Positions 3,921 to 34,103 of a DNA stretch of 64,000 nt are shown one piece after another. The DNA lies in NCBI RefSeq assembly GCF_000003815.2, contig NC_049986.1:18758946-18822945 (forward strand), in the 5' to 3' direction. The notes under the pieces are model-generated. The model was not told the DNA's origin. It made no database searches and saw only the letters and a list, made by a program, of their open reading frames with translations. Positions within the stretch are counted from its first letter, which is position 1; every line of letters starts with the position of its first letter. The DNA comes from Branchiostoma floridae (lineage: Eukaryota; Chordata; Leptocardii; Amphioxiformes; Branchiostomatidae). Position numbers and translations under genes: made by a program.

Positions 3921-4860
3921 GGTCTTTTTAGCGAATGCCCACAAACGCCCACTCTGGAGAAGTCCGCGCTGCACGAATCTCATTTTTTTTGCTTGGAATA
4001 TGTCCACGTTGTGCTCCCATATATTAATCCTGAGTTTCAAGTCAATCCATCCACCCAAAGTGACATAAATCAAAGTTTACGATTTTCGATGGTCTTTTTA
4101 GCGAACGCCCAACAAAATGTCTTTTTAGCGAATGCCCACTATATCCACAAAAATATCCGCCGTCGCGCAACGGCACCTAAACCTACCGCCACAAACTTGT
4201 TCAAGATGGTGTCCCATTAATGTGTACGGAGTTTCCGTGCTCTACAAGCATTTTAAGTCCCTGTTTTTGGTTAAAATGTGCGGCGCCGATACTACTATAC
4301 TTTAACTATTACAATTCAAGATGGCGGGCGCTAGTCACGTGACCTCATTGCGGGACTGTTCTATAAGTATCGCGGGAGGGACTGGTGTAGCATAGCTTAT
4401 CATACAACTATTTAGAGTGAATTCTGAACAAGTTTTTCAATTCATAGTGCTATAATCTGACTGATATTTACATTGTGGTCCTTTTTTTCTGTGTTCTTCT
4501 TCTGTTTGAGGAAATTAGTGCAAATATGGAACTTGATTTACCTCACCTCAGTGCCCAATTAATCAATAATAATTTAATGTAACAAACAAGGCTCAGACAC
4601 AAGTGTTATAAACCTGACTGGGGCCCAGTTAACCAATACTAGTAAAACATAGCTACTTATTATTAACAAAACTATTTACATTATAATAAAACTCTTCACC
4701 AAACTGCAGACTTTTCTTACATTTATTTATTACAGCAACATTGTTACAATGAGGAGTTGCTTAGATGAGTATCTGTTACAGTGTGTACAAACTTTTTTCA
4801 AATACAAACATTTATTTCATTTCACTTCCTAGATATTTTTTACAGTATTGTGTGCAGAAA
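3921..4860 (+). repeat. left terminal inverted repeat of the 30 kb element
   Basis: Matches the reverse complement of about 33130-34103 through many co-linear blocks. Examples are the terminal GGTCTTTTTAGCG, the internal CCGTCGCGCAACGGC region near 4160, AAGATGGCGG at 4318, GCTCAGACACAAGTG near 4590 and ACAGCAACATTGTTACAAT near 4733. Similarity decays inward with small indels. The motif GTCTTTTTAGCGAA recurs at about 4093 and 4120, so the outer 200 bp holds three copies of the terminal motif. Confidence 0.85.
4318..4343 (+). promoter_or_regulatory. YY1-like and E-box motifs in the left TIR
   Basis: AAGATGGCGG (4318-4327) fits the YY1 consensus, and the palindrome GTCACGTGAC (4334-4343) contains a CACGTG E-box. 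The same pair occurs inverted in the right TIR. This resembles a TIR-embedded promoter, but no transcript evidence is available. Confidence 0.4.
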
Positions 4861-6189
4861 AATGTGAACACATGCTATTAATAGCCTAATAAAATACTGA
4901 AATATGGCATGAGTGGGCTCCTCTTCAGTACAGAAATGAATTGTTTTATAACAAGTTATGATGTAGAAAATTTCAATTGTACAATGTATCCTTTATTAAC
5001 ATTTACAAACAAGTTGTTGTTTCTCTTCTTAATAAATTGACAACAAACTTACGTATGCCTATATATTCCTTAAATTCTTAATTGCTAGTGTGCCAATTAC
5101 TGTAATTCCTTCTTTTCTTCAATGTACTTTTATGTTCAAGGTTTTCACAGTGACATCATTATTCTTGGTGACTATATAAATTATGTATAACAAAGAATTC
5201 ATTTACCGTTAACATTTAGTTCCGAGAACACGTTGAATTTTCTCACACTGTTAAAGTTTGGTACCGAGAAGACAAAGTGAATTACAGTATCTACAATTAA
5301 GTTTTACGCTAGAGTCATTCATGCACAATGCAACTATACTGTACCACTAAGTACTATATAATGGCTAACATTACCAGACCAGGATGTTTTAACTAACTAT
5401 TTTAAGTTAACAAGTCTGTTTGTAAAAGACCGATTAACTGTCATCCAAATTTGCAATTGAAAGAATAATTACCATTACCTTTTCTTTTTCATGTTCAGAT
5501 GGATATACTATACATACACAACACACACAACAATTTATAAACTGTAACATTTTCAACTATGAAAATTCATAAATCTTATTCTTTAATTATGCAAATTCAT
5601 CACATAAAGCTGATTCTTAATATAATAGTTGCCAGTTAACATTGATAACTTTGGGAATTGTCATCCCAAACCACTGTCACCTTTATCACTACTTTTCTTG
5701 CTTCTTAACTAAAACACAGATCATTTCACATTACCCATCTCTACAAGCATAATGCCTTGAAACTTGTATGGTACATGCCAACTGTGAAAGTCCTGTCCTG
5801 GGCTTGCAGTATTAAAGAACAATACATTGAAATAGGCCTGAGGCCCATCGGTACTGTGTACATTAGGAAATGTTAGGATTGACGCTAAAAGAGCATTTTT
5901 GACATGTAATGCTATTCAGTAAGTGTGAGTTCAAATGTTTTTAAGTCATTAAACATGGACATTTGGATACAGATACATTACTTTTTCTGCACAAATATAC
6001 AGCTTTATCATTAACTTGTTTCATTAGAGTCTACTTGTATTGATACATTAAAGACTTGTCAGTAGTGTTTAACTATAAGTATAACAGATCTCTGTACAAC
6101 AAGTCATTGACCCAGAGCCTTTTCATCACCAAGACTTCCGATACTATCTTAATAATTTATCTATTTCATATACTACAGTAAGGCTAGGG
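4861..6189. other. AT-rich non-coding stretch inside the element
   Basis: AT-rich sequence with no convincing ORF, tandem repeat or RNA gene. Weak inverted resemblance to parts of 31-33 kb may be the decayed inner portion of the TIRs. Confidence 0.5.
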
Positions 6190-6281
6190 TCATTGGCACA
6201 GAGCTGCTGGAAAGTTGTTCACTTCTCCCATCGATGTCGTTGACATTGTTTCCCTTGTAGTTGTACGTCAACTTTATTCTC
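6190..6281 (-). pseudogene. AP1G1: gamma-adaptin last exon with a frameshift
   Basis: The minus strand reads RIKLTYNYKGNNVNDID, the end of the ear domain. One extra G in the run GATGGGAG then moves EVNNFPAALCQ-stop into another frame. The native-looking stop is at 6190-6192. Confidence 0.8.
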
Positions 6282-7002
6282 CTGATTGGTGCCTAAAAAA
6301 TAAAACATTAGAAACAAGTAAGAACCACAAAGAGAAAGTGTTACTGAAATGTTGCAAGAACCGTCTTTTTTTGCCAAGGACTTGTCCATGGTCAACACAG
6401 GATTTCAGTTTCAATTTCATTGAAATGGTCTGACAAATGTCAAAGACACAAAAAGTCTAGTAGACTTCAGAATATGTTATTGTGACAGCTTTTTGATGAG
6501 CTGTTCATAATCTTTGGTGATAGTCCTGCTTTTCCATGATCCCAAGATCACTTTGAGGCCTTGTTGATAGGGAATTATACATACAATAAAACCTGACTCA
6601 CTTTCTGTGGGTTGAGGATCTTGATGACCTGTGTGACCACTCTTATGTTGGATGCGGGAACCACACTACCAGATGGTGACTGGAGCTGAAGCTGGAATGT
6701 CTATGGGAAGCAATACAGGACAAAGTTAGCATAACAATTTCCTCCCATTTTTATCCTTTTTCATATTTCTGCAGCTGAATTAACAAACTTCAGAGTTGCA
6801 GTTTGAGAGGATTTAGCTACAAGAAGTTAGACCACCTTCATTAAGTCTCCTGGAAAAAAAATTGTGTACAGCAGTATGACAAGTTGCTCAAACATATGAC
6901 TGCCTACAAAACAATCATCAAAATCGGTTTGATATGTTGCAAGATACATTAGAAACTGTTTCTGAAAAAATAACACCTTTCAGCAAAGGTAGTGTCACAT
7001 AC

Positions 7003-7123
7003 CTTTGGAACTGCAGCCTGGAACACAAACTCATGCATGGGTGTATCTGTGCTGTTGGTGGCCGTCAGTGTGATGATGACTACGTTATCATTGCTGTTGT
7101 CCTTCTGGAAGCTGAACTCGATC
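7003..7123 (-). pseudogene. AP1G1: gamma-adaptin ear (GAE) domain exon, frame still open
   Basis: AG-flanked on the 5' side and GT-flanked on the 3' side. The exon encodes the first beta strands of the ear, with the conserved T-x-A-T-N-S-T and EFVFQAAVPK segments. Its reading frame is intact although neighbouring exons are broken, so the copy is probably not very old. Confidence 0.8.
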
Positions 7124-7884
7124 CTGGAAACACAATACACAGACTGGTCAGTATCCCATTAGCTTCTTTCCCTCAACCTGTGTAAAACTGTTTAAGATCA
7201 GATGATATCCACACTAGTTGCACACTGCAGAGCACGATGAAAAGAAGAAGACATGTAACAACATTTTAATAGATTAATTTGCAGTAGTACCAGTCCTTAT
7301 TGCTTTGAAAAAGGTGGCAGTCACCAACACGTCCACTGATGTTAATCCAATGGTTGTCAATGGAAAACTTTGTCCTTTATTCATTAGAGTATGTGAGAAA
7401 GGACAACTTTAAGCCTACTGCACACTCTGACGCCGCATCTTCAGAAAAGATGCTGGAGCCGCATATTCTACATTTTGAAGCTTTATTCGAGCCAACGTGC
7501 AAAAACGTTTCACTGTGTGGCTTCTTCAGTGCTTTGCTCTCGAATCATTCACTTCTTCATGTTATAGATGTGTCCAACAAAATGAGCAGATGAACCAATG
7601 AGAGAGTATCTGTTGTTGTAATAGTTACCTAGGTTGTTGGCAGACATTTGCATGGCTGGTTGTGGAGTGACACCATCCATCAGGGCTCCCAACATGTCCA
7701 CCTGAGGCTGGGGGGCGCTCATACCAGGCACCATGGGAGCTGGACCTGCAATGGCATAGATCGACTGCAAATTGAAGACTTGTAATGGAATTTGTTCATC
7801 CAATCACCCATATTTATACATCAATGGGCTATGTACAAAAGTGGCTATATCAGTACATGGTCTGAACAAGTTATGCCTGGTTGT

Positions 7885-8035
7885 TTGGCATCGTGTGGCA
7901 TAATGGTGAAGGTTTTTAGCCCCAAACCAAGAGGTCCTGACTTGTTCTGACATGCCTCTAGGTTGTGCCCTTTACACAAGTGGGATGACTGGGGCACAGG
8001 CTTTTAGCCAGGCACCTGTCAAGGCGTCATCTGGA
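7885..8035 (+). repeat. tRNA-derived SINE (same family as 47335-47460)
   Basis: Begins near GGCATCGTGTGGCATAATGG, whose TGGCATAATGG part is a good Pol III A box, and ends near TTTTAGCCAGGC. The copy at 47.4 kb (opposite strand) shares GGCATCGTGTGGC, GTGCCCTT and TTAGCCAGG. It lies in an intron of the gamma-adaptin fragment. Confidence 0.5.
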
Positions 8036-10134
8036 CGCCCTTTTCTTAGAATAACAAGAAATCTGATGTGCTGGACGCCCTTACACTGGGGAGCAGATTC
8101 TCTGACGAACATGAAATTCTGATTGACCAGGGATGCTACCAGGTCATCTGTGGTGACAGTCTTCTACTGTGACCTCCGTAACAGTATTTTTACCTCGTAA
8201 GATACCTTAGAATGCACTATTTTGACTTAAAATCATCAAAAACTCTGCACCATGGAAGGTGGATGCCCCAGACCCCCCTGCAATAGTCACTTACCACGAC
8301 TCACCAATAACTTTGGACACCCTGTAATAAAATCCTAGCTAAAAGCCTGCTGGGGCAGGGCTTGGCCCTCCCCCTAAGAAGTCCAGCAATGCATTACCCT
8401 GTAGGGCAGGCAAACAGCAATCTTAGGATTTGTTGGCAAACAGCAATCGTTAGGATTTGTTGTACTGTTCAAGGAAAATGAAAGTGGTCTCGATCCAGTT
8501 TTAGCTAACTGAAGAGCTAGTCTTCCACTGGTCGTGACAGAAAAGAAAGACACTATGTACAGGTTCATTGTTCCAGGGAAGTAATCCCCTAGCTCTTTTT
8601 TTGACAAGCACAATGGACAGTAGACTGCAACCCTTTCCAGTAGTGTGCATGTCTGGTGAGTGACACAGACGGAATCAAGCTCATGTCTTCTAGTTCCAAA
8701 GGCAGTGCCGCTATCCACCGGACTACGCATGCTACATGCCGTTACAAAAGAAGTTGTTAACTCATGTCCACAAGAACAAGCCTATAAAGCTACTTCAGAC
8801 CTTTACAGGAGTATAAATCTGACTCGATTGAACATTTGATGGTTAGAATACTGACCTCTTCCTGTTTGACAGCTGCTTAGGCCTTGCAGGAGGTGAAACT
8901 GTCGTGTTCTCTCCATTTGTGTTTGCTTCTCCCTCTCCTTTACTTCCTACCTTGGCATCTAGACCAGACCTAAGGGAAGAACAGCATGCTAGAGATTAAA
9001 ACATGAACAATCAAGAGAGCCACCAGCTGCCTTGTTAGTGTACTGCACCATTTCAGACATACAATGCGAAGAGAATATACGGGTTAGCTTGAACTACAAG
9101 GTCTGTAACTGTGAGCTTGTGATGCCCAGTTTTCTATTTCTTGCTTGCCAAAAGCCTCTCAAATTCCTTTGTAACCTAGACTCTCATACTTATTCAGACT
9201 TCTGAATGTGTTTTTATCATGACACTACATTGGTTCAATCCATGATGGTTAGCTGATATACCTGACAGTGTGTAACTTACGGTATATATTGTCTGTGTAA
9301 AGCATGTGCTGAGCTTCATCACTGCAGTCAGTGTGAAGGATTTTTTGACAGCTGTCGAACCAGAACTTTTTATAATTTTCTTCAGTATGTCTAAAACCTG
9401 ACAACTTCTGTCACCTGCATAGTGAGAAATCTTGGTCACTTCTGTTGTACATGTCACCAATATTACTTTAGTGCTATACACTCACATATGCAATAACTTC
9501 CATTACTAAACGCTTGTAAGGACAGTGGCACATTTGCATGAGAAAAACAGTTTTACACAAAATTACAGTGGTAAACATTATTCCAGTGGCAACCATATTT
9601 GCTCATCCTTCCACAATTACTCCATCACTGCTAGTTAAACATTCACTACTTATACCTATAATTAAAATGCCTTCTCAAAATAACGGTTGTTCAAAGCTTC
9701 ATCCCACCATACTTTAAGATGCTGGTGGGTCTTAAAGACACATTCCTGAAGGCAGGGACTCACCTGAAGAGGCTCTTCTTCTCCACCTGACCTGACATAA
9801 GAAGATATCCATACTCCCCAACACACCAGTAGGCCACCTGGACCAGGGGTTGCTGTACAGGGAGAAACTTTAGTAACAATTGGTTTCTTGTATTCACTTA
9901 AAACTGCACTTTCAAGGTATGACCAACATTAGGCTTCTGTATACCCAAAGCTTCTGTAGAAAAAAGGTTCCATGTGTAGTGGAGAGGGAGTGTATGATTC
10001 AGGGGTAAGTATGGAGTATTTGTTAACAGATTTGCAAAACTGCAACTAGTTTTAAATTGAATAAATGTACTAACTTATATCTAACTCATATAAACTATAT
10101 CTACTGAGTATTTAATTTAGCATTCTTCACTTAC

Positions 10135-10274
10135 ATGTCGGCAGCTATGCAGATGTTGGAAGTGCAGTCTACTTTAAAGATGGGGTCCGCCTTCTCCAAG
10201 AAGAAAATAAGCTTTTCATCATCCCTCGTACATTGTTGCTGTACATCAGTGCAAAGCTCAACTCCATTGATCTT
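10135..10274 (-). pseudogene. AP1G1: gamma-adaptin trunk exon with a one-base deletion
   Basis: ELSFALMYSNNVRGMMK is followed in the next frame by FFLEKADPIFKVDCTSN. The two pieces are contiguous in gamma-adaptins, so a single base has been lost. The 5' splice site GTAAGT is retained. Confidence 0.8.
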
Positions 10275-10389
10275 CTAATTATAGTGCACAATGAGAAACA
10301 ATAGATATTCAAGTAGTGGAACACACTAGAAAACACAAGTCTTGGGAGAAGAAGAGTTTACAAAGCAGGTTAGGACTTCCATGACTTTT

Positions 10390-10520
10390 GTTTCTGTGGC
10401 AAAGCGGTTAAGCAACCACCGCTGCCTGGCCAACTGTATCCAATTCCATGGATCCGAGTTCTATCCCAGTCGGCTCAACTCATACGTATTGTAAGGGTTT
10501 GCATTCGTCTTTTGGCAGGA
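10390..10520 (+). repeat. tRNA-derived SINE or tRNA pseudogene
   Basis: TGGCAAAGCGG (10397-10407) matches the A box and GAGTTCTATCC (10456-10466) matches the B box, 49 bases apart as in tRNA genes. No clean cloverleaf or acceptor stem was found, so a SINE head or pseudogene is more likely than a functional tRNA. Confidence 0.5.
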
Positions 10521-13060
10521 AAATACATGTAAAAGGGGGGTCCCGTGTCTAGCACGTTTAACAGCCTCATAACTCAGTTTGGGCACTTACTGGCTGCAAT
10601 AATACACCAAGGTGAATATGAAATTTTCCTGCCACTTACTTTCTAATGGAGATGTCAGACAGGAAAATGGGGCGGAAAGCCCTGTCCAATCTGAAAAGAG
10701 GGTCTACATAGGGGTTTCTGGCAATGCTTAGTTATTATTGAGCTTCACGTTATAGGTGGTGTCTGTATATCTATTCAACATTGGAAGGTTTGCAATAGCA
10801 GCTGTAACTTCACTGGATCTCTAAATGCAACCGTACAATGATATTAGGTTGTCTGACACTTAGGCCACATATACATGTACATCATGTGCACAGCTGAAAT
10901 AAACATAAGCTAAAATATACCTCTAACTTGGGAATTATTTACAGTATCGTATGAAATTAGACTAAGTAAGCAAAACGGTGTTACCAGTCTACGAACCTGT
11001 TGTGCTTAACTCATGGATCCAATTGAAACCACATCGCTCACTCACTGAGGTGGAAGCTGTATGGGGGCATCATGATGGACAATGGTGTGTGTCCAGAACT
11101 TCCTCTTCATAGCTGCACTGTTATCTGAGAATTAATTCAGATGTGTTAAGATCTCTCAATAACCAACAAAACTTTAAACATCATCAAACTCAGGAAAGAG
11201 CTTAGAAGTTGTAAATGTAACTAGACAAGTACCACACAGTGAACTAAACTCCAGAATAGTTGCCACGGACTGCATATTGCAATGGAAGGTATAAACACAC
11301 CCCTCTATAATGTAGACTTAATACTTGACTTGACTTTATTGATGATGAGAACAGTAGTGCCTACATATTATTAACTCATGCAGGGCTCGAAATACCTGCA
11401 CTGGTGCAAGAAACATTGAAAATTACCTGCACCTGTTCTCATCCATGTGAGCATGGTCCTGGATGAGCTTCATGAAAGACTCAAAATTGGCCTTGTTCTT
11501 TGTCACACCTCAGCACTTACAGACCTATGGAGGATGCTGTTGCCATACCCAATTCCACCTGTGGCGAAGGAGACAAACAGTTTAATATCAATACATCAAG
11601 CAAAAAACAGACCTACGAAGCTTTTCTTCTCGCAATGTAACCAATCCCACAGTCTAAGCCTTTAATAAGATTAAAGACCCAACTCCATCGATTTTACTGG
11701 TCATACACTTATACAGTTACAAGCCGCTTAATTGCAGACCCCATTTGCCAGTGCTTTTCGTGCAATTATTCGAATGGTGCAACAAGTTATTAACTTGAAC
11801 CGCACCACCCTTGGCTTTGGGGATTTCGTGCAATGAACCGAATTGTGCGATTTTCCGCGGTGCAATTAACTGGCTTCTACTGTGCAATGAAACATGCAAA
11901 ATGACTTAAGGTTTTACTATTTACTGCCTACAGCTCTACTTTGGCCACAGGAAATAAATTTTATAGATGACATCAGCGCGCTCATGATTTCAGAAAAATG
12001 CAATTTTTTTTTCTCTTCGGGGATGGTCATGTAGAACAAAATAGGCAAACATGTTGTTGTTCCACTAGTTCACTTCTATAAGACAAGAATGAAGTAGTTG
12101 TAATGCCACGTTGTGTCACTTCAAATCTTGGTACGGAGTTTATGGTGTTATATAGTGGTGTGCAGTATTGGCCTCACTCCCTACCTGACGTCAGCCTCTC
12201 ACGTCAGGTTGTACTGTTGGAGGGCTGCAGGATCTCCACTTTACTGAATTAGCGGCCCAGGTCCAGGCTCTTTGGGCCTGAGTCAGGAATGGCACACAAC
12301 TGTAACAGGAACTTCATTGCCACGGTGATCTGGACAAGGTGCAGCTTTTGGCAATCAGTCACCATCTCTGTTGAAAATAAAACAAAATGATCTATACACA
12401 ATCATTATACAGGTTATATATTCCCTGGAGTGTGCGCTGCATGCATTTTCACTGGAACGGACAGGCAAGCTATTGAAAATGCTGGCAATACTCTTCAATT
12501 GCTTAAAAATTGTGAATACTTTTACCTTTTACAGAAATACAATGTCCTTATCATCTTTATGGGATTTCCCATTAGGTACTAGTAGATTTGAAACAGCAAC
12601 TGAACCAGGCGCAAATGTTTTGGGTGCAAAATAATCATCCATAACCAGGCTACATGCTTACAACAGAACATATTCTGCTACTGTACCCACCTTAACCGAG
12701 TAGATGGGAATCCCTCTCAGATGAAAGCCTTAAGAGGCATCATGTCTTCATGTCTTGTTTTATCTTTTGTCTTGGATTATGCAAGTAAAATGTATCTACC
12801 ACAAGGTTTGCAAAGCTGAGCTTTTGCACCTAGATTACAAAAATTATACATATACACAAGTCTTTTGACTGAATGCAATGTTAAACTTTACATTTGATAA
12901 GTAATGTTACAAAGGAATTCTTACTTCTAACAGAGTGCACTTTTACCATAAATGACAAAGGTATTATGGCAACTGCAATTATGCAAATTATGTCCATAGA
13001 CAGACAAACACATAGACAGAAAAAACAAGACAGACACATTGGAAACAGACTACTTTTTGC
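10521..13060. other. non-coding interior of the element, repeat debris
   Basis: No convincing gene. It contains a CGAAATA-ended repeat fragment at about 11383, a TA-flanked MITE at 11714-11882, and exon-like pieces on the minus strand (near 11450 and 12330) that I could not assign to any family. Some may be further eroded host exons. Confidence 0.4.
11714..11882 (+). mobile_element. 169 bp MITE, TA target site, family A
   Basis: The left end (CAGTTACAAGCCGCTTAATTG) and the inverse of the right end (CAGTAGAAGCCAGTTAATTG) form TIRs. A TA precedes the left end. The interior repeats GTGCAATT/AATTGCAC motifs. A second copy is at 48645-48818. The TA target and CAG ends suggest mobilisation by a Tc1/mariner/pogo-type transposase. 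Confidence 0.7.
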
Positions 13061-13495
13061 AACATTTCCTTCACAGGTCCAGAACAACAAGGAAGTACTT
13101 GTTGCAAAATTTCCTTCACAAGTCCAGAAAGACAAGGAAGTACTTTTTGCAACATTTCCTTCACAAGTCTAGCCAAGGAAGTACTTGTTGCAATGTTTCC
13201 TTCACAAGTCCATGAAGACAAGGAAGTACTTTTTGCAACATTTCCTTCACAAGTCTAGCCAAGGAAGTACTTGTTGCAATGTTTCCTTCACAAGTCCATG
13301 AAGACAAGGAAGTACTTTTTGCAACATTTCCTTCACAAGTCTAGCCAAGGAAGTACTTGTTGCAATGTTTCCTTCACAAGTCCATGAAGACAAGGAAGTA
13401 CTTTTTGCATGATTTCCTTCACAAGTCTAGCCAAGGAAGTACTTGTTGCAATGTTTCCTTCACAAGTCCATGAAGACAAGGAAGTACTTTGGCAC
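13060..13495 (+). repeat. minisatellite of ~41-44 bp half-units (period ~85 bp)
   Basis: Alternating half-units share AAGGAAGTACTT..TTGCAA..TTTCCTTCACAAGTC and end either in TAGCC or in CATGAAGAC. About ten half-units are present and the central ones are nearly identical. The array overlaps the last ~25 codons of the transposase ORF at 13419. Confidence 0.9.
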
Positions 13496-20100: not shown

Positions 20101-20374
20101 CATGACACAGCTACCTGTAAAGGCCACTTACCGGCGTACATTGCTTTTATGAAATCATGTGCAATATCGGTTTCAGATAATTGTTAAACTTTTTTATTAT
20201 ATATAATGTTTAACGGTAATTCGGCACAGCAATGTCATTCTTAACTGTATATATAGTATTTTTAACAATTGTTCCTGTATCTTTTTTAAATGTAACACGG
20301 CAGCAATTCAGGGTCTTACTGACCCTGCTACCTGTATCGTGCAGTTGGATAAGAAATAAACCATTATGATGACA

Positions 20375-21430: not shown

Positions 21431-21955
21431 CTTCAAGTGTATATAAATGCACAAAATTTGAGGTATAATATTGTCTGGTGATACAATCAAATTCTTAGAT
21501 TGAACCGTCGTTATATGAGATATAATGTCATTGAGTGAACATAAGGGTTTTTGTTTTCCAGATCATATGTTGAATGGGACAACATGATGAGGTTGTTGAA
21601 GACAGAATGAAATAAAGTAATGTAGTCAACGTATTGGGTGCATTTAGTAGCTCATAACTCAAAGCATTTATTTACTGTGCATGTTGCAAGTAGATTACAG
21701 TGTAATTCTGTTCTGTTCTGACAACACGAGCCACCGACAGATGGTTTTCGCATGGATCCAAGTCTAGTCCTCGTCCCTGGAACTTTGGCGCCAATTTTGG
21801 GGGCGTGTTATGAATCCTGCTCTCTGATTGGACACTTAACAAATCTGTCCTACCTCGCTTGCAATTCGAATGGTCAACGGCTTTTCATGAGTAAACGATG
21901 CGGTTGGCACTGAATATTTGTCACAGTAGGGCAAAAAGTTGTATCAAAGAATGAA
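21431..21955. other. no gene seen
   Basis: Non-coding sequence between the LINE debris and the zinc-finger gene. It may hold the 3' end of that minus-strand gene. Confidence 0.4.
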
Positions 21956-22397
21956 TTATTTTTCATACCTTGCCAAAGCATCACAAGCTTTGTAACGGTC
22001 GCAGTACCTGACGGGCTCTCCAGGGAAGGCAGTTTCCGGCCCCACACAGTTCGGGCAAAGGAAACACAGTCCTGTGTTCTTGGCCTTCCATGCCTTGAAG
22101 ACTCTGGTTGCAAAGCCCAGGCACTGCCTACGAAGACAAGAACAATCATTAGGTTGACAAAAAACATTTAAATGTTAAAATTGAAGCCATACTCATATAT
22201 ATCAAAGATATGTGGTAACCCTGTCACAACTTACACAAAATAAGTGTAACGTTACCAGGGGACATGCAAGAATTGAGTCGAAATTTTAAAATAATGACTT
22301 ACCCATGACTCCACAGATTACAATTTGTGCACTTAAGGCAGTCTTCCTTCAATGTACACTGCTTGGAGCACTTCGTGCAGGGATGTTTCGGTGCCAT
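21956..22397 (-). CDS. two-exon PHD-like zinc-finger protein
   Basis: Exon 1 is 22397-22303, starting AAAATGGCACC (MAPKHP..), and exon 2 is 22127-21956, with donor GTAAGT and acceptor TTCGTAG. The join keeps frame (..WSH-G-QCLGF..). The product, about 89 residues, has metal ligands in the order C-x2-C (CTKC), C-x2-C (CLKC), C, H-x2-C (HGQC) and C-x2-C (CFLCPNC), close to the C4-H-C3 plan of PHD-type fingers. A stop follows ..DALARYEK. Alternatively the GCAAG/GTATGA there could be another donor leading to further exons. The start codon is ~280 bp from that of the RGG gene on the opposite strand, so the two probably share a promoter. A function in chromatin binding, or for the element, is inference. 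Confidence 0.6.
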
Positions 22398-22678
22398 TTT
22401 GCAAGATTTTGGGGCGCGACCTTGGGAGGTATTCCTGCAACCGACCGAGTTGAGCAAGATTCGGCGGGAAAGAGAGAGACACACGCCGGAAGTCATGTGA
22501 CCAAAGGCGTTGTTTTTTTGTGTAAGGTACATGAATAAGTACATTCAAGTTTATGACTGGCGATTATTTATCCAAAATGAAACAATGCCACGTGTTTGTT
22601 ATGATTGGACTTGTATGTCATGAATATTATGATTTGTTCCTTGTCTCATTTACCGCGATCCTTTGCGGCTCCTTCAAA
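22398..22678. promoter_or_regulatory. candidate bidirectional promoter between the zinc-finger and RGG genes
   Basis: 281 bp separate two divergent, well-contextualised start codons. The sequence includes a CCACGTG E-box at about 22588 and a CAAAATGG start context on each side. There is no TATA box at a convincing position. Confidence 0.45.
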
Positions 22679-25600
22679 ATGGCCTCTACAAACGGCACAC
22701 AGGAGACAGACCCTGAGAAAATGGAACATGACTCCACGGCGGCGCAACAACAGGAACTTCTTGGTTCAGCAAAGTATGTATTTGTTAACGACTTCAGATA
22801 CTTCAGATGAAACAAAGACGTTTAAAGCTCTACTCGATTATAAGATACTTAAAAAAGTTGCGAGGAAGTCTGAAAGTCGTGACCAGTTGTAAGAGGGCCT
22901 GCATGCTCTTTTCAGTAAGGCAGCCTATTTCATTTCCCGTAATTCGTAGGGAAAACCATCTTATCTACGTAATTCTTAGCGAGGTGACCAAATTTAGCGT
23001 ACTTGCCTGCTTCGATTTAGCGTAAGACGCGTACGTAGGGTCCAGTTATTCTGAATTCACAGCGTAAATCGTTGTCGGGACCCCCCATGCAGACCCTCTT
23101 GTAAGTTATGTAACTACAGTCAAACCTGCCTGAGCGACCACCTCTTCTCAGCGACCACCTGGCCATTTCGACCACTTTTTCTCGGTCCCGATTTATTTTC
23201 CCATTGACGTAAGCATTAAGCGACCTTTTCTCAACGACCACCTGGCCAATGCGACCACGACCGGCCCAAATTGGGACCCATTACGACCGCATCATTTTCA
23301 AAATTGAGGTTTTCATCGATTTTTGATGATAACTAGCACGATTTTGTGCCGAAATCGGCCAGTTTTCGTCGGATTTCGGGGTTAAATTTACAGTTTACAG
23401 TGTGCCTGTTGTATTTGAGATTAAAGACCTCGCTTCTTTGCGTGCATGCAGTGTGCTTGCTTTATGCCATTAAGCACAATGGAAACCATTTATACTTTCC
23501 ATCGGGCATGTCGATACTCTCCTCAGCGACCACCTGTCCAAATCAACCGTTTTTTTCCGGTCCCCCGGGTGGTCGTCTTGGGCAGGTTTTACTGTACTTA
23601 AATTTGTTGTCATATGTCACCATCCGTCGTGCATGTAACAATGGGGTTCAAGCGTAAGGTGAAAGCCTGATCTGTAAAAAAAAACCAGGAAAATTACGTT
23701 TTTGAGATTGAGACTTTGAACGTTTTAGAGGCTTGTTGCTGTTGTCTGGACAAAGAAGGCTAAATAACTTTTTTTTGTATCATAGTCTCACGCTCTTATT
23801 GCGCCACATCTAGTAGATTTCTAGAGGGGAAGGCCTCAAAGTCGATTCTTTCACATGCAAAATAGCCAATTAACACTGACCTGGTGGCACGCGAGGGACT
23901 GCATTTGCAATTAAGTAACAAGTGTGAAACCTGACTTTGTTTGATCCATTGTTTGTATTGTTCAATACGTATTTTAGCTCCCCAAGTCATACATAGGACC
24001 CCAAAAAATTTTTATGTACTTGTCATCAGATTTAAGATGCTGTTTGTCACCTACAGAAACAATGAAGAAAAACCCAAAGACTCAGACACGGAATCTAAGA
24101 ACAAACAGTAAGTTGTTTGTAGTATTAAAAATTAACAACAATGACGCACAGTACCTGCTTGGTGTGAGTTTATGACATTTACGATAGGCAGGGTGCGAAT
24201 GGCTATTCACACCTTAGTAATTTTCTGTGACCTGTGAGCAGCAATATGATTGTTCCTCGCTAGAAAGTTACTGGATGTGGTATGTACACGAGGGGGCTGG
24301 TGCACCCAAACGCGAATGCAGATGTTACAATATAAGATATCACATTCTTAGGTCACTGTAATGATTACGTTGGCCATAATCGCCCTATGGTTGTTTTAGG
24401 TTAGTGGAGTTTAAAGTAAACCATATGAGATTGTTTAAATTGCAAAAAACTTTTTTTGGCTATGTTTCAGGGGAACAGAAGCTGATACCGTGACTGACAA
24501 GTAAGTATTTTTGTCCATCGTCCTCAAAAAAAGAATCCATATTTGGTAGTAGCTGTAAAGCAACCATTGTAACATCATTTTCAAGTAACAATTATGAAAC
24601 CTGACTGTGTTTGATCCTATGTCCATTGTTTGTATTGTTCAATTCATATTTTAGCTCCTCAAGTCATACATATACATGTCATAAGATGTAAGATGTTGTT
24701 TGTCGCCTACAGGAACAGTGAAGAGAAAGAAAAAGACTCCAAGTCCAAGAACAAACAGTAAGTTATTAAAAGTTAACAACAATGACGCAATTAATAATAC
24801 AAAATACGTTAGGAAGTATTGACGCAGATATGATTTATCAAAAGTTACATTACTTCCAGAGGAACTTTGTGTGAAATCTTTACACACCACACCTGATGAG
24901 ACCCTGGACTGACTTGCAAAGACCTTATGTCATGCTCTTGATACATTGCCTATGCAGACAACCAAACAAAATAGTAAAATTTATTTGCTAGTCATTTGCA
25001 ACCTATTCAACTTGTTTAAAGGAAAAGACGAGACCTGTCTTTCAAGTGCAATGTCATGAACACATTAGTTCAATGTAAGATGAACGCTCAGCATTTCAAA
25101 GATAAATGAAGCTTCGTATGACTTTGCATCTATGAGTTGACTTGAAATGCAGTATTCATAAATGGCCGTCCAAGCCAAAGATATTTGTAACAAATGATTT
25201 GTGAAGCACAGACTTGTCCAGAGTGGGCTATACTAGTATACGTGCTGTTGCACGGCCAATATGTTGTGCTGTTTTAAATCATACAATTTTTGTTCATGTG
25301 CCATGCTCCTCCACAGTGGCCTTTAATTAAATCCACGCCCCAGCGGCTCACTGAGCTTAGCGGGGCATTTGACCGCTGTGTTAACCAATAGATTGTAATA
25401 GCCTTAGGTTTAAATACCCGTGACCTCTGACCCGTGACGTGTGACTATCAGGTGTAGGCAAAGGAAAGACATCTTACTCACCTGTATAATGCCCTATCTG
25501 GTCTATAGGCAAAGGAAAGACACCTTACTCACCTGTATAATGCCCTATCTGGTGTATAGGCAAAGGAAAGACACCTGTCTCACCTGTATAATGCCCTATC

Positions 25601-28600
25601 TTGTCTGAAGGCAAAGGAAAGACACATTACTCACCTGTATAATACCCTATCTGGTCTATAGGCAAAGGAAAGACACCTTACTCACCTGTATAATGCCCTA
25701 TCTGGTCTATAGGCAAAGGAAAGACACCTTACTCACCTGTATAATGCCCTATCTGGTGTATAGGCAAAGGAAAGACACCTATCTCACCTGTATAATGCCC
25801 TATCTTGTCTGAAGGCAAAGGAAAGACACATTACTCACCTGTATAATACCCTATCTTGTCTATAGGCAAAGGAAAGACACCTTACTCACCTGTATAATGC
25901 CCTATCTGGTCTATAGGCAAAGGAAAGACACCTTACCTGTATAATGCCCTGTCTGGTCTATAGGCAAAGGAAAGACATCTAACTCACCTGTATATTGCCC
26001 TATCTTGTCTGAAGGCAAAGGAAAAACACCTTAGTCACCTGTATAATACCCTATCTGGTCTATAGGCAAAGGAAAGACACCTTACTCACCTGTATAATGC
26101 CCTATCTGGTGTATAGGCAAAGGAAAGACACCTATCTCACCTGTATAATGCCCTATCTTGTCTGAAGGCAAAGGAAAGACACATTACTCACCTGTATAAT
26201 ACCCTATCTGGTGTATAGGCAAAGGAAAGACACCTTACTCACCTGTATAATGCCCTATCTGGTGTATAGGCAAAGGAAAGACATCTAACTCACCTGTATA
26301 TTGCCCTATCTTGTCTGAAGGCAAAGGAAAAACACCTTAGTCACCTGTATAATACCCTATCTGGTGTATAGGAAAAGGAAAGATACCTTACTCACATGTA
26401 TAATGCCCTATCTTGTCTGAAGGCAGAGGAAAGACACCTTACTCACCTGTATAATGCCCTACATGGTCTATAGGCAAATAAAAGGCAACTTACTCACCTG
26501 TATAATGCCCTATCTTGTCTATAGTCAAAGGAAAGACACCTTACTCACCTGTGTAATGCCCTATCTGGTGTATAGGCAAAGGAAAGACACCTTAACCACC
26601 TGTATAATGCCCTACATGGTGTATAGGCAAAGGAAAGACACCTTACTCACCTGTATAATGCCCTATCTTGTCTATAGGCAAAGGAAAGACATCTTAACCA
26701 CCTGTGTAATGCCCTATCTGGTCTATAGGCAAATGAAAGACACCTTACTCACCTGTATAATGCCCTATCTGGTCTATAGGCAAAGGACAGACACCTTACT
26801 CACCTGTATAATGCCCTATCTTGTCTATAGGCAAAGGAAAGACATCTTAACCACCTGTGTAATGCCCTATCTTGTCTATGGGCAAAGGAAAGACACCGTT
26901 CTCACCTGTGTAATGCCCTATCTGGTCTATAGGCAAAGGAAAGACACCTTACTCACCTGTATAATGCCCTACATGGTCTATAGGCAAATAAAAGACAACT
27001 TACTCACCTGTATAATGCCCTATCTTGTCTATAGGCAAAGGAAAGACACCTTACTCACCTGTGTAATGCCCTATCTGGTGTATAGGCAAAGGAAAGACAC
27101 CTTACTCACCTGTATAATGCCCTATCTGGTCTATAGGCAAAGGAAAGACACCTTACTCACCTGTATAATGCCCTATCTGGTGTATAGGCAAAGGAAAGAC
27201 ACCTATCTCACCTGTATAATGCCCTATCTTGTCTGAAGGCAAAGGAAAGACACATTACTCACCTGTATAATACCCTATCTGGTCTATAGGCAAAGGAAAG
27301 ACACCTTACTCACCTGTATAATGCCCTATCTGGTGTATAGGCAAAGGAAAGACACCTATCTCACCTGTAAAATGCCCTATCTGGTCTATAGGCAAAGGAA
27401 AGACACCTTACTCACCTGTATAATGCCCTATCTGGTCTATAGGCAAAGGACAGACACCTTACTCACCTGTATAATGCCCTATCTTGTCTATAGGCAAAGG
27501 AAAGACATCTTAACCACCTGTGTAATGCCCTATCTTGTCTATGGGCAAAGGAAAGACACCGTACTCACCTGTGTAATGCCCTATCTGGTCTATAGGCAAA
27601 GGAAAGACACCTTACTCACCTGTATAATGCCCTATCTGGTGTATAGGCAAAGGAAAGACACCTATCTCACCTGTATAATGCCCTATCTTGTCTGAAGGCA
27701 AAGGAAAGACACCTTACTCACCTGTATAATACCCTATCTGGTCTATAGGCAAAGGAAAGACACCTTACTCACCTGTATAATGCCCTATCTGGTGTATAGG
27801 CAAAGGAAAGACACCTTACTCACCTGTATAATGCCCTATCTGGTCTATAGGCAAAGGAAAGACACCTTACTCACCTGTATAATGCCCTATCTGGTCTATA
27901 GGCAAAGGAAAGACACCTTACTCACCTGTATAATGCCCTATCTGGTCTATAGGCAAAGGAAAGACACCTTACTCACCTGTATAATGCCCTATCTTGTCTA
28001 TAGGCAAAGGAAAGACACCTTACTCACCTGTATAATGCCCTATCTGGTCTATAGGCAAAGGAAAGACACCTTACTCACCTGTATAATGCCCTATCTGGTC
28101 TATAGGCAAAGGAAAGACACCTTACTCACCTGTATAATGCCCTATCTGGTCTATAGGCAAAGGAAAGACACCTTACTCACCTGTATAATGCCCTATCTGG
28201 TCTATAGGCAAAGGAAAGACACCTTACTCACCTGTATAATGCCCTATCTGGTCTATAGGCAAAGGAAAGACACCTTACTCACCTGTATAATGCCCTATCT
28301 TGTCTATAGGCAAAGGAAAGACACCTTACTCACCTGTATAATGCCCTATCTGGTGTATAGGCAAAGGAAAGACACCTTACCCACCTGTATAATGCCCTAC
28401 ATGGTCTATAGGCAAAGGAAAGACACCTTACTCACCTGTATAATGCCCTATCTTGTCTATAGGCAAAGGAAAGACATCTTAACACCTGTGTAATGCCCTA
28501 TCTTGTCTATGGGCAAAGGAAAGACACCAGTACTCACCTGTGTAATGCCCTATCTGGTCTATAGGCAAAGGAAAGACACCTTACTCACCTGTATAATGCC

Positions 28601-30953
28601 CTACATGGTCTATAGGCAAATAAAAGGCAACTTACTCACCTGTATAATGCCCTATCTTGTCTATAGGCAAAGGAAAGACACCTTACTCACCTGTGTAATG
28701 CCCTGTCTGGTCTATAGGCAAAGGAAAGACATCTTACTCACCTCTATATTGCCCTATCTTGTCTGAAGGCAAAGGAAAGGCACCTTACTCACCTGTATAA
28801 TGCCCTACATGGTCTATAGGCAAAGGAAATCTACCTTACTCACTTGTACGGTGTCTTACCTGGTCTTAAGTCAAAGCAAACCTACCATACTCACCTGTAC
28901 GCTGTCTTACCTGGTCTGTAGTCAAAGAAACACAACTTACTCACCTGTACGGTGTCTTGCCTGGTCTGTAGTCAAAGAAACTCACCTTACTCACCTGTAC
29001 GGTGTTTTATCTGGTGTGTCGTCAAAGGAAACACACCTTATTTACCTGTAAGGTGTCTTAACTGGTGTGTCGTTAAAGGAAACACACCTTAATTACCTTT
29101 TACGTGTCTTACCTGGTGTGTCGTCAAAGGAAACACACCTTACTTACCTGTACGGTGTCTTACCTGGTCTGTAGTCAAAGAAACTCACCTTACACACCTG
29201 TACGGTGGCTTACCTGGTCTATAGTCGAATGAAACTCACCTTACTCACCTGTACGGTGTTTTTTCTGGTATGTCGTCAAAGGAAACACACCTTATTTACC
29301 TGTAAGGTGTCTTAACTGATGTGTCGTTAAAGGAAACACACCTTAATTACCTGTACAGTGTCTTACCTGGTCTGTAGTCAAAGGAGACAGAGATTACTGA
29401 CACCCGTATAAGTGCAAAAACTTTATTTTCCATTCGCACGCTCGCATTAGTTTTGGTGCTTTGTTGAACGTCATATTTCCAATGGTGGCAAAACTGGTAG
29501 AAGAAGTGCAGAGTAAACTATCACATAATCATTAACATACGAACGGTACGCTGTAGTTACCTCATGATAATTTGTAGTCCCTGGTCGTCGGGCTGACACT
29601 CTCATGGCCTCTGCCTCGTGATGCATATAACGTTACATTGTTGGGAGGGAAGCCGCTGTCATGTCGTGAAACGACAAGTTTGCAGACATAAAAACTACAA
29701 CACAATGCTTAATGTGCTTACAAACTAATGTATTTTCCTGCCGCTCTATCTCCTATTTTGATGAGAAAAACGGCCCGGTAGTCTCTGGGAGATCAGAAAG
29801 GCTGTGCTGCACACGTCACGGGTCAGAGGTCACGGGTATTTAAACCTGAGGCTTTTACAATCTATCACTGACCGTTTACCAAGTCTTTGTGTCCTGGGTA
29901 CCCTGGGTAAGAGAACGTCTTTTCCACGCAAAGCATGCTGGGGAAAGCAATATAAACCTGGGAAGGAGAGCTTCCGTGACATAACTCCCCTCTCGACAAT
30001 CTAGAAGGGTAATCTTAACACCCTCACACTCACAGCGCCACCAAATTAGGTACATTTTAAAATTCCCTTTGATGTAACGTATCAGCATTCTGGCAACATT
30101 TTAACTACGAATAGTAAACTTGTGTCTTCTTTTAGCCCCGTTAACTGTCAGATAAAATAATCTTACTAGCTAACTAGGGTACAGTCACACGTTGTATAGA
30201 AACGCACATAACTTAAAGGTAATTGAGACAAACGCAAAACAAAACAAAATGGGAGCTGTGGATTCCATGTAGTTTTATTTATAGATTAAGTAAGTCCACA
30301 ATCTAAACCTATGGCTTCTTCACGGCGCTGGGTACGAGCGTGTTCATGTGCTATGATAAATATTTGACATGATAAAGAACATTGATTTGGAAACTACTAG
30401 TATTTTTATGCCATGTTTTTAGCTGATCCTCTTCAAGATGGCCATCTGTCCAAAACAGCCAGTTTTAGCCAGATCTTTCTTTAACAGGTTTGACAATATT
30501 TTTGTAACAAACTGTGATGTAGACAAGATTATAAAAGTTATACATTACATCACTCCAAAAGCCTAATATCCTTCGATAAATGTATGATCTTGCAGAACTT
30601 AGGTTATCCTTTGGTAATACAGTAAAGACAACCACTTCAGTCCTGTTCTTTTACCTTTCAGGAAGAAACGTTGGAAACATGGATGGAAGAACCGTGGACA
30701 GAGAGGAGGAGGGAGAGGCGGGAGAGGAGGAGGGAGAGGCGGGAGAGGAGGAGGGAGAGGAGGAGGGAGAGGAGGAGGGAGAGGAGGAGGGAGAGGAGGG
30801 AGAGGCGGACAGAGGGGAGGAAGACGTGGAGGGAGAGGCGGAAAGAAAGGCAGCAACATTTTCGACAAGAACTTTTTCTATGACATGGTGCGGGAGGGGG
30901 GGACAGTTAATGTCAACTACAACTGTCGGGTCCAGTGCCCTCAGTGGTATTAA
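22679..30953 (+). CDS. five-exon RGG-box protein of 170 residues carried by the element
   Basis: Exons are 22679-22773, 24057-24107, 24471-24500, 24713-24757 and 30662-30953. Every junction has GT..AG and the phases agree, and the total is 513 nt including the stop. The product starts MASTNGTQETDPEKMEHD, continues with a Lys/Glu/Ser-rich segment of two homologous mini-exons (EEKPKDSD.. and EEKEKDSK.., each ending KSKNKQ or ESKNKQ), then KKRWKHGWKNRGQ, about 45 residues of RGG/RGGG repeats and a non-repetitive tail, NIFDKNFFYDMVREGG, ending QCPQWY. RGG boxes usually bind RNA or G-rich nucleic acid, so a nucleic-acid-binding role is likely. I do not recognise the family. The last intron (5.9 kb) contains the splice-signal minisatellite element in antisense. 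Confidence 0.65.
23117..23594 (+). mobile_element. 478 bp TA-flanked MITE, family B
   Basis: Ends CAGTCAAACCTGCC and its inverse CAGTAAAACCTGCC, with TA at both sides. The interior has repeated GCGACCACCT blocks in both orientations. It lies in intron 1 of the RGG gene. Confidence 0.75.
23935..24790 (+). repeat. tandem segmental duplication carrying RGG-gene exons 2 and 4
   Basis: The segment around 23935-24135 recurs at about 24598-24790. Shared landmarks are TTTGATCC..CCATTGTTTGTATTGTTCAAT, TTTTAGCTCC..CAAGTCATAC, the CTACAG acceptor, the mini-exon and AACAAACA/GTAAGTT. Offset is about 655 bp. Confidence 0.8.
24791..25380. other. intronic sequence, no gene seen
   Basis: Part of intron 4 of the RGG gene, left of the minisatellite element. 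No repeat or ORF of note. Confidence 0.4.
25381..29873 (-). mobile_element. splice-signal minisatellite element, copy 2 (complete, minus orientation)
   Basis: Right end ..TACAATCTATCACTGACC at 29873. The left end carries the inverse core (AGATTGTAATAGCC, then TTTAAATACCCGTGACCTCTGACCCGTGACGTGTG), so the array is bracketed by ~60 bp TIRs. From right to left it has a ~470 bp leader, ~10 older variant units (29390-28840) and ~66 homogeneous 51 bp units (28840-25450). Order and orientation match copy 1 inverted. No transposase is encoded, so it is probably a non-autonomous element whose interior has expanded. Confidence 0.8.
25446..29395 (-). repeat. ~76-unit, 51 bp minisatellite with intron-like units
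   Basis: On the minus strand each unit contains TTTCCTTTGCCTATAG (3' splice-site-like), a 21 nt core, then CAG/GTGAGTAAGGTGT (5' splice-site-like). The intron-like part is ~30 nt. Units differ by a few point changes that recur in higher-order groups, for example the pattern near 26440-26900 recurs at 26960-27560 and 28390-28700. On the plus strand the 51 bp period leaves a 17-codon frame open for up to 260 codons (MPYLVYRQRKDTLLTCI), which I treat as an array artefact. Confidence 0.9.
30662..30953 (+). CDS. RGG-repeat terminal exon
   Basis: The acceptor TTTACCTTTCAG is strong. In the frame set by the upstream exons the purine-rich repeat reads RGGGRGG and the tail is free of stops until TAA at 30951. 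The track-style frames starting at 30580 (EEGE repeats) and on the minus strand (LPPLPP) are the same repeat out of frame. Confidence 0.65.
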
Positions 30954-33129
30954 GGGGCACAGGGCCTGACTTACTTATCTTCTTGTATACGGGTTCAGGT
31001 TTTGTGCACGTGAAAGATATGCGCGCTTGTTAAAAATCTGTATTACAATATGCAATTAGCTGATTCTCAAGGGATGTAAAATTTTTTTTACTGTTTTAGT
31101 ACTGGTTTCACCTCCCCGAGGATGATCTGAACTGAACTGAACTGAGTACTGTTTTAAACTCAAACCCTTGAAAAAGATGGCACAAAATATTATTAAGTAT
31201 CATATGGATGCATTCTATTTAAAAAAATCTTGTCAATATTGTAATGATTTTAAAGGGAATTTTTCGTCTTAAAAAAGATTTGCCCGTGAAACAATCCTCT
31301 TGAAAAATGTTGAATGTTATATGATAGAGAAAAACTTTCAGTTTTTATATTTTACAATACAAAACCTCACACTAGTAACATGTGCTAAAAACTGTCTTTT
31401 TACGCGCAACTTTTTAAATCTTTCACGCAAATCAAACCCGTTCCCTTGTATATAAGTTACAAATTATTTGTCACAGGATCACTGTTAGCGCAACAATTGA
31501 GTTATCTATGGTACAACAGTTTACAAGAGAACACAATGAAATTGATGTTGACAATGTTGTAACCTTAACTTGAAAGTTCATCTGTGTTGGTACAATGTTG
31601 TAACCTATTGCAATACAGTAGAAATTATTCAGAAATTGAAATTAAATACATTGTATTTGAGAGTTTGTGTGACATGCCCTCTTCCCAGCCCATCTGTACT
31701 TGATTATCCTCATATCCCAACTTATCCTCTTATACCAGATACAAAATATATTTGAAAACGTTTGTGTGACTTGCCGTCTACCCAGCCCATTTGTACTTAA
31801 TTATCCTCTTATACCAGGTACAAAATATTGTTAGAGTGTCAATGTTAGAGCAACAACTGAGTAATGTATGCTACAACAGTTTAAACAAGAGCTTCTGAAA
31901 AAAGCTAGTCTTTCGCTTACTTATATTGTGTAGGTAAAATTGTTTGGCATAGTTTGGTCAAGCGTGGGTGCCAAGTCTGCAACGTTGGCAGCTCTGGCAC
32001 AGTTTGGTCAAGTGCTAGGTTATATAACTGTTTAGTAAGGTAGTGGTTCTCACAGAGTATATTTTACTGGAACTGTATAATAACACAACTGCATGAATGA
32101 TGTTAACTTTATTCGGATTGTTTCGCTGTTAAGAACGGCTCTGTTACAGTACAACAGGGTTTTATGAAAGTGCACTGTAGTAATCAAATTTATCAGTAGA
32201 TGTGTCCTGAATTTCTGCAAGAACAAACAAAGTATTGTCACCATAAACAACATAAAATATCAACATGGCATATACAGTAATGGAAATATTTTTTTTAATG
32301 GCAAGATCATGTGAAAGGTAGATATTTTAAACTAAAACAGGTCCGTGGTATGTTTAATGGAACGTTTCGTTTCTTTTAGTAACGCAATTATGCTTTTATT
32401 TGACGGAGTCGTGACGTCACGCGTCAGACTCACTCCGTCGAGCTCGGTCAGAATCTTCCCTTTCGAAATTATAAATTAAATGTGGGTAATTCTATTTTCA
32501 ACGCATCCGAGGGCTACTATTTTGCTGAAAGAAGTTTGTTACACGAAAATAGCCTGAAATTTCTTAGAGTAAGAAATTTCCGAATACGCCCCCCTCCCAC
32601 ACCATGTCAGATGCCACGCATGTTACACAATTCTAGATTTTGTAGCGGTGATTTTCCATAAAACAAAGTAAATGACATGTCAAACTGTTCTCTACAATGT
32701 CTGTTTTATTATAACCAAACAGCGAACATGTTAGTTTATAAATTGTATACAATCTTACGAAGAAATCCTCACCGTTCACATCCGTCTCTGCAAATTCCTG
32801 CTTATAAGCCATACAGAAACCAAGCAGCACATTCATGGTAGGCCGATACGTATGTCATAACGTTACATACCGTCGAATCTGCAGGGTAGAATATCTCGCT
32901 AGCACGATATGGCATGGACCGCAAACCAAGCAGCACATTCATGGTAGGCCGATACGTATGTCATAACGTTACGTACCGTCGAATCTGCAGGGTAGAATAT
33001 CTCGCTAGCACGGTATGGCATGGTCGACCCGGACGGACGGACGGACGGACAGACGGACAGAAATCTAATATCGGTCTGATTGCCTTTCGCCGCGGAAGCG
33101 CGGCGAAAGACAAAAAGAACAAAACTAAT
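30954..33129. other. non-coding right part of the element with local duplications
   Basis: Contains paired repeats at about 31490-31740 and 31745-31900 (TTATCCTCTTATACCAG and CAACAACTGAGT-type blocks), a 106 bp tandem duplication at 32817-33023 (CCAAGCAGCACATTCATGG..), and a CRE-like GTGACGTCAC at ~32411. No gene recognised. Confidence 0.5.
33029..33060 (+). repeat. GGAC microsatellite
   Basis: A run of GGAC/GGACA tetranucleotides, followed at 33086-33109 by a perfect hairpin (TTTCGCCGCG / CGCGGCGAAA). Confidence 0.85.
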
Positions 33130-34103
33130 TAAACTGATGTTGACAATCAGTAGAAAATAGTTAGAAAGTGAAATACAATGTATTTGAAAAAAGTTTGTAA
33201 CTCATCTCAACAACTCCGTATTACATTGTAACAATGTTGCTGTGATAAATAAAGATAAGAAAAGTCAGCAGTTTGGTGAAGAGTTTTTACTATAATGTAG
33301 ATATGCTTTTCTAGTATTGATTAACTGGTCCCAGAGGTTTATATCACTTGTGTCTGAGCCATGTTTGTACATTGGACACTGTCTGATGTGAGGTGAATTA
33401 AGAAATGACTATGAACATGGACTTGGGATGTTAAAATTTAAAGTTAATGTCCACTGTGCTCCATTCCATCCAGCCTTCCTCCATCTGCTAAGTTCCTCAA
33501 ACGAGTCTCTCAAACCTGGGTAATATAAATAGCAAAGAAAAAGGACCACAATGTAAATATCAGTCAGATCATAGCACTATGAATTGAAAATCTTGTTCAG
33601 AATTCACTCTAAATAGTTGTATGATAAGCTATGCTACACCAGTCCCCCCTGCGATACTTATAGAACAGTCCCGCAATGAGGTCACGTGACTAGCGCCCGC
33701 CATCTTGAATTGTAATAGTTAAAGTATAGTAGTATCGGCGCCGCACATTTTAACCAAAAACAGGGACTTAAAATGCTTGTAGAGCACGGAAACTCCGTAC
33801 ACATTAATGGGACACCATCTTGAACAAGTTTGTGGCGGTAGGTTTAGGTGCCGTTGCGCGACGGCGGATATTTTTGTGGATATAGTGGGCATTCGCTAAA
33901 AAGACATTTTGTTGGGCGTTCGCTAAAAAGACCATCGAAAATCGTAAACTTTGATTTATGTCACTTTGGGTGGATGGATTGACTTGAAACTCAGGATTAA
34001 TATATGGGAGCATAACGTGGACATATTCCAAGCAAAAAAATTGAGATTCGTGCAGCGCGGACTTCTCCAGAGTGGGCGTTTGTGGGCATTCGCTAAAAAG
34101 ACC
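33130..34103 (-). repeat. right terminal inverted repeat of the 30 kb element
   Basis: Reverse-complement partner of 3921-4860. It ends CGCTAAAAAGACC at 34103. The outer ~500 bp are nearly identical to the left copy, while the inner part has diverged. The open frames at 33804-34151 and 3993-4220 are the same TIR sequence read in one frame and are not treated as genes. Confidence 0.85.
33681..33706 (-). promoter_or_regulatory. E-box and YY1-like motifs in the right TIR
   Basis: GTCACGTGAC (33681-33690) followed by CCGCCATCTT (33697-33706), the mirror of the left TIR pair. Both motifs stay intact even though indels have accumulated elsewhere in the repeats. Confidence 0.4.

Follow-up and report, generated by a model that had tools for sequence, protein, structure and literature searches.

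A probable oversized Mutator-like element with a transposase-like frame and a captured AP1G1 fragment within an exon of Branchiostoma floridae

A stretch of 64,000 nt from Branchiostoma floridae (hereafter the window; NC_049986.1, 18,758,946-18,822,945, forward strand, assembly GCF_000003815.2) contains an exon whose two parts are separated by about 30 kb of DNA bounded by terminal inverted repeats (TIRs). The locus raises the question of which kind of element could have brought so much sequence, including a piece of another host gene, into an exon. All coordinates are window positions, and the genome searched comprised 513 Mb in 431 contigs (labelled C4, C6, C17, C148 and so on). We consider, with a probability of about 0.7, that 3916-34108 is one oversized member of the Mutator superfamily (Mutator-like elements, MULEs), which carries a transposase-like frame and a fragment of AP1G1, and which entered the exon, or was repaired there, abnormally. 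The element is most likely an oversized, probably autonomous MULE and also a Pack-TIR. This supports the original prediction of a very large, gene-carrying TIR transposon that splits an exon, the host being apparently a TPR/DUF294-nucleotidyltransferase gene.

The core TIRs of the element are identical at 560 out of 566 positions in an ungapped alignment. An inverted-repeat tool paired 3921-4491 with 33533-34103 at 99%, and weaker gapped similarity continues inward to about 0.9-1 kb, which is the TIR length given in the original prediction. Long TIRs, here 566 bp at 99% and about 1 kb overall, are a feature of MULEs. The genome search with the 571-bp TIR gave 355 candidates, and the best 40, all of them matching, were scored, including the two ends of the window element. 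The left TIR is 99% identical to the right TIR and 94-95% identical to the 38 other scored matches; by this difference, the window TIRs constitute a true pair. In 29 of the 30 fetched loci, two of which are the window ends, GGGAG or CGCAT (or their complements) continues the TIR outward. Locus L019 possesses TCGAT in this position, and may represent an internal repeat or a true end. Since other family copies extend the TIR by these 5-bp tips on each side, the ends predicted at 3921 and 34103 were dropped in favour of 3916 and 34108; the inverted repeats themselves are real. The terminal 20-mer (up to three mismatches) occurs six times in the window, three times per TIR and never outside the TIRs, with a mean of 0.00 in 100 shuffles. 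Its three copies in each TIR (on the left at 3921, 4091 and 4118; within 3921-4137 and 33887-34103) are possible subterminal transposase sites. The features of the locus are listed in Table 1.

Table 1. Positions of the element, its contents and the surrounding host exons in the window
Feature	Position	Strand	Remarks
Whole element	3916..34108		30,193 bp; tips GGGAG (left) and ATGCG (right); TIR pair and tips in other family copies
Left end	3916..5046	+	Tip, 566-bp core TIR 3921-4486, subterminal part common to small copies up to 5046
Right end	33200..34108	-	Core TIR 33538-34103, tip ATGCG 34104-34108, degenerate subterminal part to about 33200
Probable transposase	13422..16406	-	995-aa open frame; first Met at residue 61; ovarian-tumour (OTU) and MULE features
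Captured 3' part of AP1G1 (gamma-adaptin) with introns	6168..10658	-	Decayed; frameshifts versus parent in three exons
Host exon, upstream part	34109..34488	-	Starts at possible initiator ATG; last 9 bases before tip without counterpart in three paralogues
Host exon, downstream part	3313..3915	-	To GT donor
Downstream exon, assumed same gene	1..1919	-	DUF294-type nucleotidyltransferase and TPR repeats; 639 aa without stop; continues beyond window
45/86-bp tandem array	13051..13490		Overlaps end of transposase frame
51-bp minisatellite array	19070..19902		Left orientation; present also in small family members
51-bp minisatellite array	25455..29385		Opposite orientation; about 77 units
Nested high-copy repeat	7996..8349		About 350 bp (89-93%)
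Nested high-copy repeat	11709..11883		About 175 bp (82-88%)
Nested repeat	16421..17229		Pieces match 7 other scored places (longest pieces 83-85%)
Nested multi-copy repeat	18153..18844		About 690 bp (79-82%)
Nested repeat	20473..21361		About 890 bp; 5 other near full-length places (86-94%)
Nested high-copy repeat	23115..23596		About 480 bp (93-96%)
Nested 1.2-kb repeat	31884..33116		98-100% to 39/39 other scored places, one partial (best 40 of 548 candidates)

Nine other complete TIR pairs were present among the 40 scored matches, and all were fetched (L043-L050 and a copy on C148). Opposite tips stand at opposite ends in 9/9 pairs, and the exact target duplications outside them measure 9 bp in eight pairs and 10 bp in one. 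These lengths lie in the 8-11 bp range that PMC6446971 states for the Mutator superfamily; a 9-bp duplication is also stated for maize Mu in PMC2774946. In their sequenced parts, the eight pairs measuring 3.5-5.5 kb are made up of TIRs and inverted 51-bp arrays, and six of the nine contain N gaps. The remaining copy, on C148, is 20.8 kb long (L051-L053; G000:C148:246298-267728) and possesses an exact 9-bp duplication. It contains 5.2 kb of N, and a repeat of TIR sequence, roughly 180 bp long, flanks about 16 kb of unassigned sequence; neither a transposase match nor, in L051:700-10000 and L052:1-3090, a Pfam match was detected. Because of this interior the C148 copy may have grown in place, and it was set aside as proof that giant members jump.

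The 995-aa frame is the probable transposase of this TIR family, which would make the window copy a one-protein autonomous element. OTU-like motifs in the frame include GDGNC (101) and HADHFVVL (243), and the MULE DDE motifs found are DKTF (668), GSDDE (735), CTRH (758) and NNNCES (853). Together with a match to Pfam PF10551 (MULE), these motifs give the MULE-type DDE and C-x2-H signature. Relatives of the frame in this genome exceed the Pfam cut-offs for OTU or MULE. The relative on C6 scores 34.4 for MULE and 24.9 for OTU in a separate frame, the one on C17 scores 35.2 bits for OTU (cut-off 23.3) and 22.3 for MULE, under the cut-off of 27.6, and a fourth relative piece has a sub-threshold MULE match only. 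In the alignment with the relatives, the rows that extend over these motifs conserve GDGNC and HF-x-VL for OTU, and DKTF, S-D-D/N-E, C-x-RH and NNN-x-ES for DDE, with some changes. The PDB search with the frame gave only weak OTU-type and unrelated matches (E 0.06 or worse), and no viral contig matched peptide patterns of the transposase. Many relatives or fragments are located on C6 (12-28 Mb) and C9 (0.3-1.7 Mb). Two of the relative loci, L033 (C6:12535511) and L034 (C11:13913389), possess identical 360-aa frames and scores, as a recent duplicate, a transposition or an assembly copy would.

The element also carries part of a host gene. The AP1G1 fragment was identified by Pfam Alpha_adaptinC2 (1.3e-7) and by PDB matches to gamma-1 adaptin, and it includes the hinge/ear end. 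Its parent lies on another contig (C6:10571513-10576723) and is colinear with it, introns included; the blocks are 74-90% identical in the genome search and 84.7-93.0% in a finer local alignment. No other place with the fragment was seen among the best 40 of 6111 candidates, which were scored. A Pack-MULE or Pack-TIR is defined by host gene sequence that TIRs enclose and that has a parent copy at another locus, whereas the same definition describes non-autonomous elements and the window element contains an open transposase-like frame. The copy is dead as a protein gene because three of its exons are frameshifted relative to the parent, and a functional adaptin cargo was ruled out on this ground. 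A separate 112-bp piece (17868-17979) is 89% identical to C6:10580361-10580472, near the AP1G1 parent and in opposite orientation.

The TIRs of the window copy differ at 6 of 566 sites (1.06%), whereas the nine other pairs show 0-2 differences. Provided that the two TIRs of an element are identical when it inserts, the window copy would be older than those nine; gene conversion would spoil this inference. The insertion had been described as possibly recent, and by TIR divergence it is instead the oldest of the ten. With the AP1G1 fragment diverged by 7-15% and the TIRs by 1.06%, the cargo would already have been inside at insertion, provided that TIR divergence dates that event, and gene conversion between the TIRs would spoil this order too. 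The order matters for the main rival to a 30-kb jump, which competes with the jump and not with MULE identity: a small TIR element inserted, then grew to 30 kb in place as gap filling captured AP1G1, repeats inserted into it and arrays expanded. Tan et al. 2021 (PMC8277862) describe transposition-independent gap filling as the origin of most single-copy animal Pack-TIRs. Growth in place is further favoured by the presence of the cargo at one place only among the scored candidates, and by the seven nested repeat blocks of the element. It agrees poorly with AP1G1 blocks so much more diverged than the TIRs (even more so in the genome-search blocks), and with a parent on another contig, where 56.9% of the cases given in PMC8277862 lie less than 15 kb from theirs. 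We regard growth in place as a real possibility, somewhat short of even odds.

The host exon was compared with its relatives in the genome. The search with the right flank found the window itself and three paralogues at 80-83% (4/4 candidates scored). In 3/3 paralogues (L055, L056, and L057) the exon is uninterrupted across the site and forms one open exon, and pieces of the next exons follow in the same order; by this comparison, the window exon is interrupted by the element. Apart from the window itself, the left-flank search at the DNA level matched 22 places with no more than 76% identity (23/23 scored), and all 22 begin at host base 3 or later. At the protein level it gave at least 200 matches (150 of 613 candidates scored), and the 25 best outside the window begin at residue 5 or 6, past the element bases. 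The exon family has undergone a huge expansion, and neighbouring matches cluster on C156, C174, C7, and C4. Of the continuous exon that had been proposed as a check, the paralogues provide intact versions, whereas an empty allele was not found in this assembly by the right-flank or the left-flank search. The proposed nucleotidyltransferase/TPR identity holds for the domains on the exon at 1-1919, assumed to belong to the same gene; the split exon has no Pfam match at E 0.1.

The flanks had also been predicted to join as 331 codons in correct phase, which did not hold. Host bases 34488-34109 and 3915-3313 sum to 983, which is not a multiple of three, and 993 bases (331 codons) are reached only with the ten bases of the two element tips. 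These ten bases supply most of 'C-A-S-P' in the joined peptide of the original prediction, and a strict host-to-host join is out of frame, with a stop after LPFCGWSTL. The restorable frame is an artefact, because the 331-codon join counts ten element bases as host codons, and a frame-restoring empty site was ruled out on this account and for want of a target duplication.

Several results weigh against the reading of 3916-34108 as one oversized MULE, some at the insertion site and others in the probable transposase. The window copy lacks a target duplication, as its flanking 9-mers match at 3/9 positions, and no exact direct repeat of 5-11 bp was found at offsets up to 6 bp from the tips. In comparison with the paralogues, nine extra bases are present beside the right tip and two or three beside the left, and the host flanks overlap by 2-3 bp (CT/GCT) in place of a 9-bp duplication; this comparison uses paralogues, with 58-62% protein identity over the left-flank part, and not an empty allele. 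As to the frame, PF10551 matches over the full model at 8.2e-5 and 23.4 against a cut-off of 27.6, and OTU at 0.037, under its curated cut-off. Zinc fingers (SWIM, FLYWCH, PHD, and others), which are not universal in MULEs, gave no Pfam match in the frame at E 0.1. Of the 45 matches that the genome search with the frame yielded (46 of 86 candidates scored), the window copy alone spans the full length; among the rest are short fragments of 58-80% identity, several of which contain stops, and the open C17 frame at 37-39%. Moreover, the nine other pairs, six of them with N gaps, gave no tblastn match to the frame, and the terminal motif of the family is absent at 11/11 transposase-relative loci (L032-L042, some overlapping; 1.5 kb flank).

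The last two results are what would be expected if another transposase moved the TIR family and the 995-aa frame were a MULE gene that is unrelated to it or was captured. A MULE transposase, as described in PMC6446971, makes 9-bp duplications and long TIRs, which agrees with the family observed here, and apart from the outer TIRs no inverted pair enclosing the frame was detected at E 1e-4 with arrays masked. We therefore hold a captured gene to be rather unlikely and retain the frame as the probable transposase of the oversized MULE.

Because a target duplication is lacking and apparent filler is present at both junctions, the element probably entered the exon, or was repaired there, abnormally, and the junctions look like end joining, not like a normal Mutator insertion. 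Removal of the element is not expected to restore the reading frame, since filler and the 2-3 bp overlap replace the 9-bp duplication. The missing duplication and the intact tips on both sides would also suit two ends that derive from separate insertions in the same gene, the intervening part having been lost by recombination, hence the differing 9-mers. This is improbable, as the window TIRs are about 5-6% from the other scored copies and 1% from each other, and as flanks that overlap by 2-3 bp relative to the paralogues leave no host sequence lost. An assembly artefact that joined unrelated contigs at inverted repeats, for which the N gaps in six of the nine other pairs might speak, is very improbable, as the only N run of the window is at 63925-64000, with none inside the element, and the window TIRs resemble each other much more than they resemble other copies.

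For an oversized MULE at this site the following course is proposed. The 995-aa frame would encode the family transposase, working by cut-and-paste on the TIR tips and subterminal repeats; the copies of 3.5-5.5 kb, organised as TIR-minisatellite-TIR, would be non-autonomous relatives of the window element, and the window copy would have entered the exon, or been repaired there, through an abnormal end-joining event. The strongest form of this proposal, a self-contained giant Mutator of an animal that has an OTU-protease transposase, can move some 30 kb with host gene segments in it, and entered a coding exon by end joining and left no target duplication, is put forward tentatively and considered unlikely as a whole.

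Similar to the window element, Hydra MuDR-6_HM, of MULE group 14 in Dupeyron et al. 2019, combines a MULE with an OTU gene motif (Table 1 of PMC6446971). That table lists neither TIR nor duplication data, whereas the window family has long TIRs and 9-bp duplications; the two are compared by description only. In lancelet, Ulp1-bearing Mutators are cited in PMC2836005. PMC6446971, a survey of 2019, saw little evidence of MULEs among chordates, and cites an earlier Branchiostoma floridae report whose transposases could not be confirmed. The window element shares with these the assignment to lancelet Mutators, and with the Ulp1 case a ubiquitin-type protease, which here is OTU and not Ulp1. Among the matches listed in the open-licence literature, no other paper named an OTU-MULE in a chordate. 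Phantom and Rehavkus, as described in PMC6446971, likewise possess TIRs of up to several hundred bp, duplications of 8-10 bp and, in some members, a minisatellite; unlike them, the window frame has OTU and no FLYWCH, SWIM or PHD match at E 0.1, again in a comparison by description only. Ginger1 and Helitron/Helentron with OTU are also DNA transposons that carry an OTU protease (PMC2836005, PMC6431247), but they depend on a Gypsy-integrase-like protein and on Rep/helicase, respectively, whereas the window frame is of MULE DDE type. The one Branchiostoma floridae Ginger1 listed in these two sources is given without OTU.

As in Pack-MULEs and the animal Pack-TIRs of PMC8277862, an intron-bearing gene fragment lies between TIRs and its parent locus was found; the window element differs from them in its open transposase frame and in having the parent on a different contig. 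In size it goes far beyond the Pack-MULEs of Jiang et al. 2004, all of which, as PMC6431247 states, were no longer than the full-length element of 7 kb. With complete arthropod MULEs of 1.4-10.0 kb in the survey PMC13359780, a MULE of 30 kb would be an outlier.

The OTU-MULE frame and the 9-bp duplications of the family supply evidence of MULEs in lancelet of the kind that PMC6446971 could not confirm. An architecture listed for one Hydra group thereby gains a TIR family with many genomic matches, and the locus offers a testable case of whether animal MULEs can carry 20-30 kb. It also calls for caution, as a frame that seems to reopen when flanks are joined can consist of transposon bases.

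Besides the AP1G1 cargo and the arrays, the element contains seven nested repeat blocks. The one at 31884-33116, with its 98-100% identity to other copies, is a late insertion. In one copy of the 18153-18844 repeat, fetched as a possible carrier of the 51-bp array, no tandem array was reported. Polinton/Maverick elements are recognised by genes for DNA polymerase B, integrase, ATPase and capsid. Pfam scans in all six frames (E 0.05) of 3921-13400, 16407-25454 and 29386-34103 detected adaptin matches and one sub-threshold RVT_1 only; Polinton/Maverick or virus-like content is without Pfam support in these stretches and in the main frame. The RVT_1 match is a weak reverse-transcriptase similarity at 20371-20490 (E 0.01, under the cut-off). 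Rfam and tRNA scans found nothing at the thresholds used. The 51-bp minisatellite is the internal part common to the family, and has opposite orientations in the two halves of the window element. Just outside its two arrays lies an inverted pair, 18843-19069 and 29679-29875, of 76% identity.

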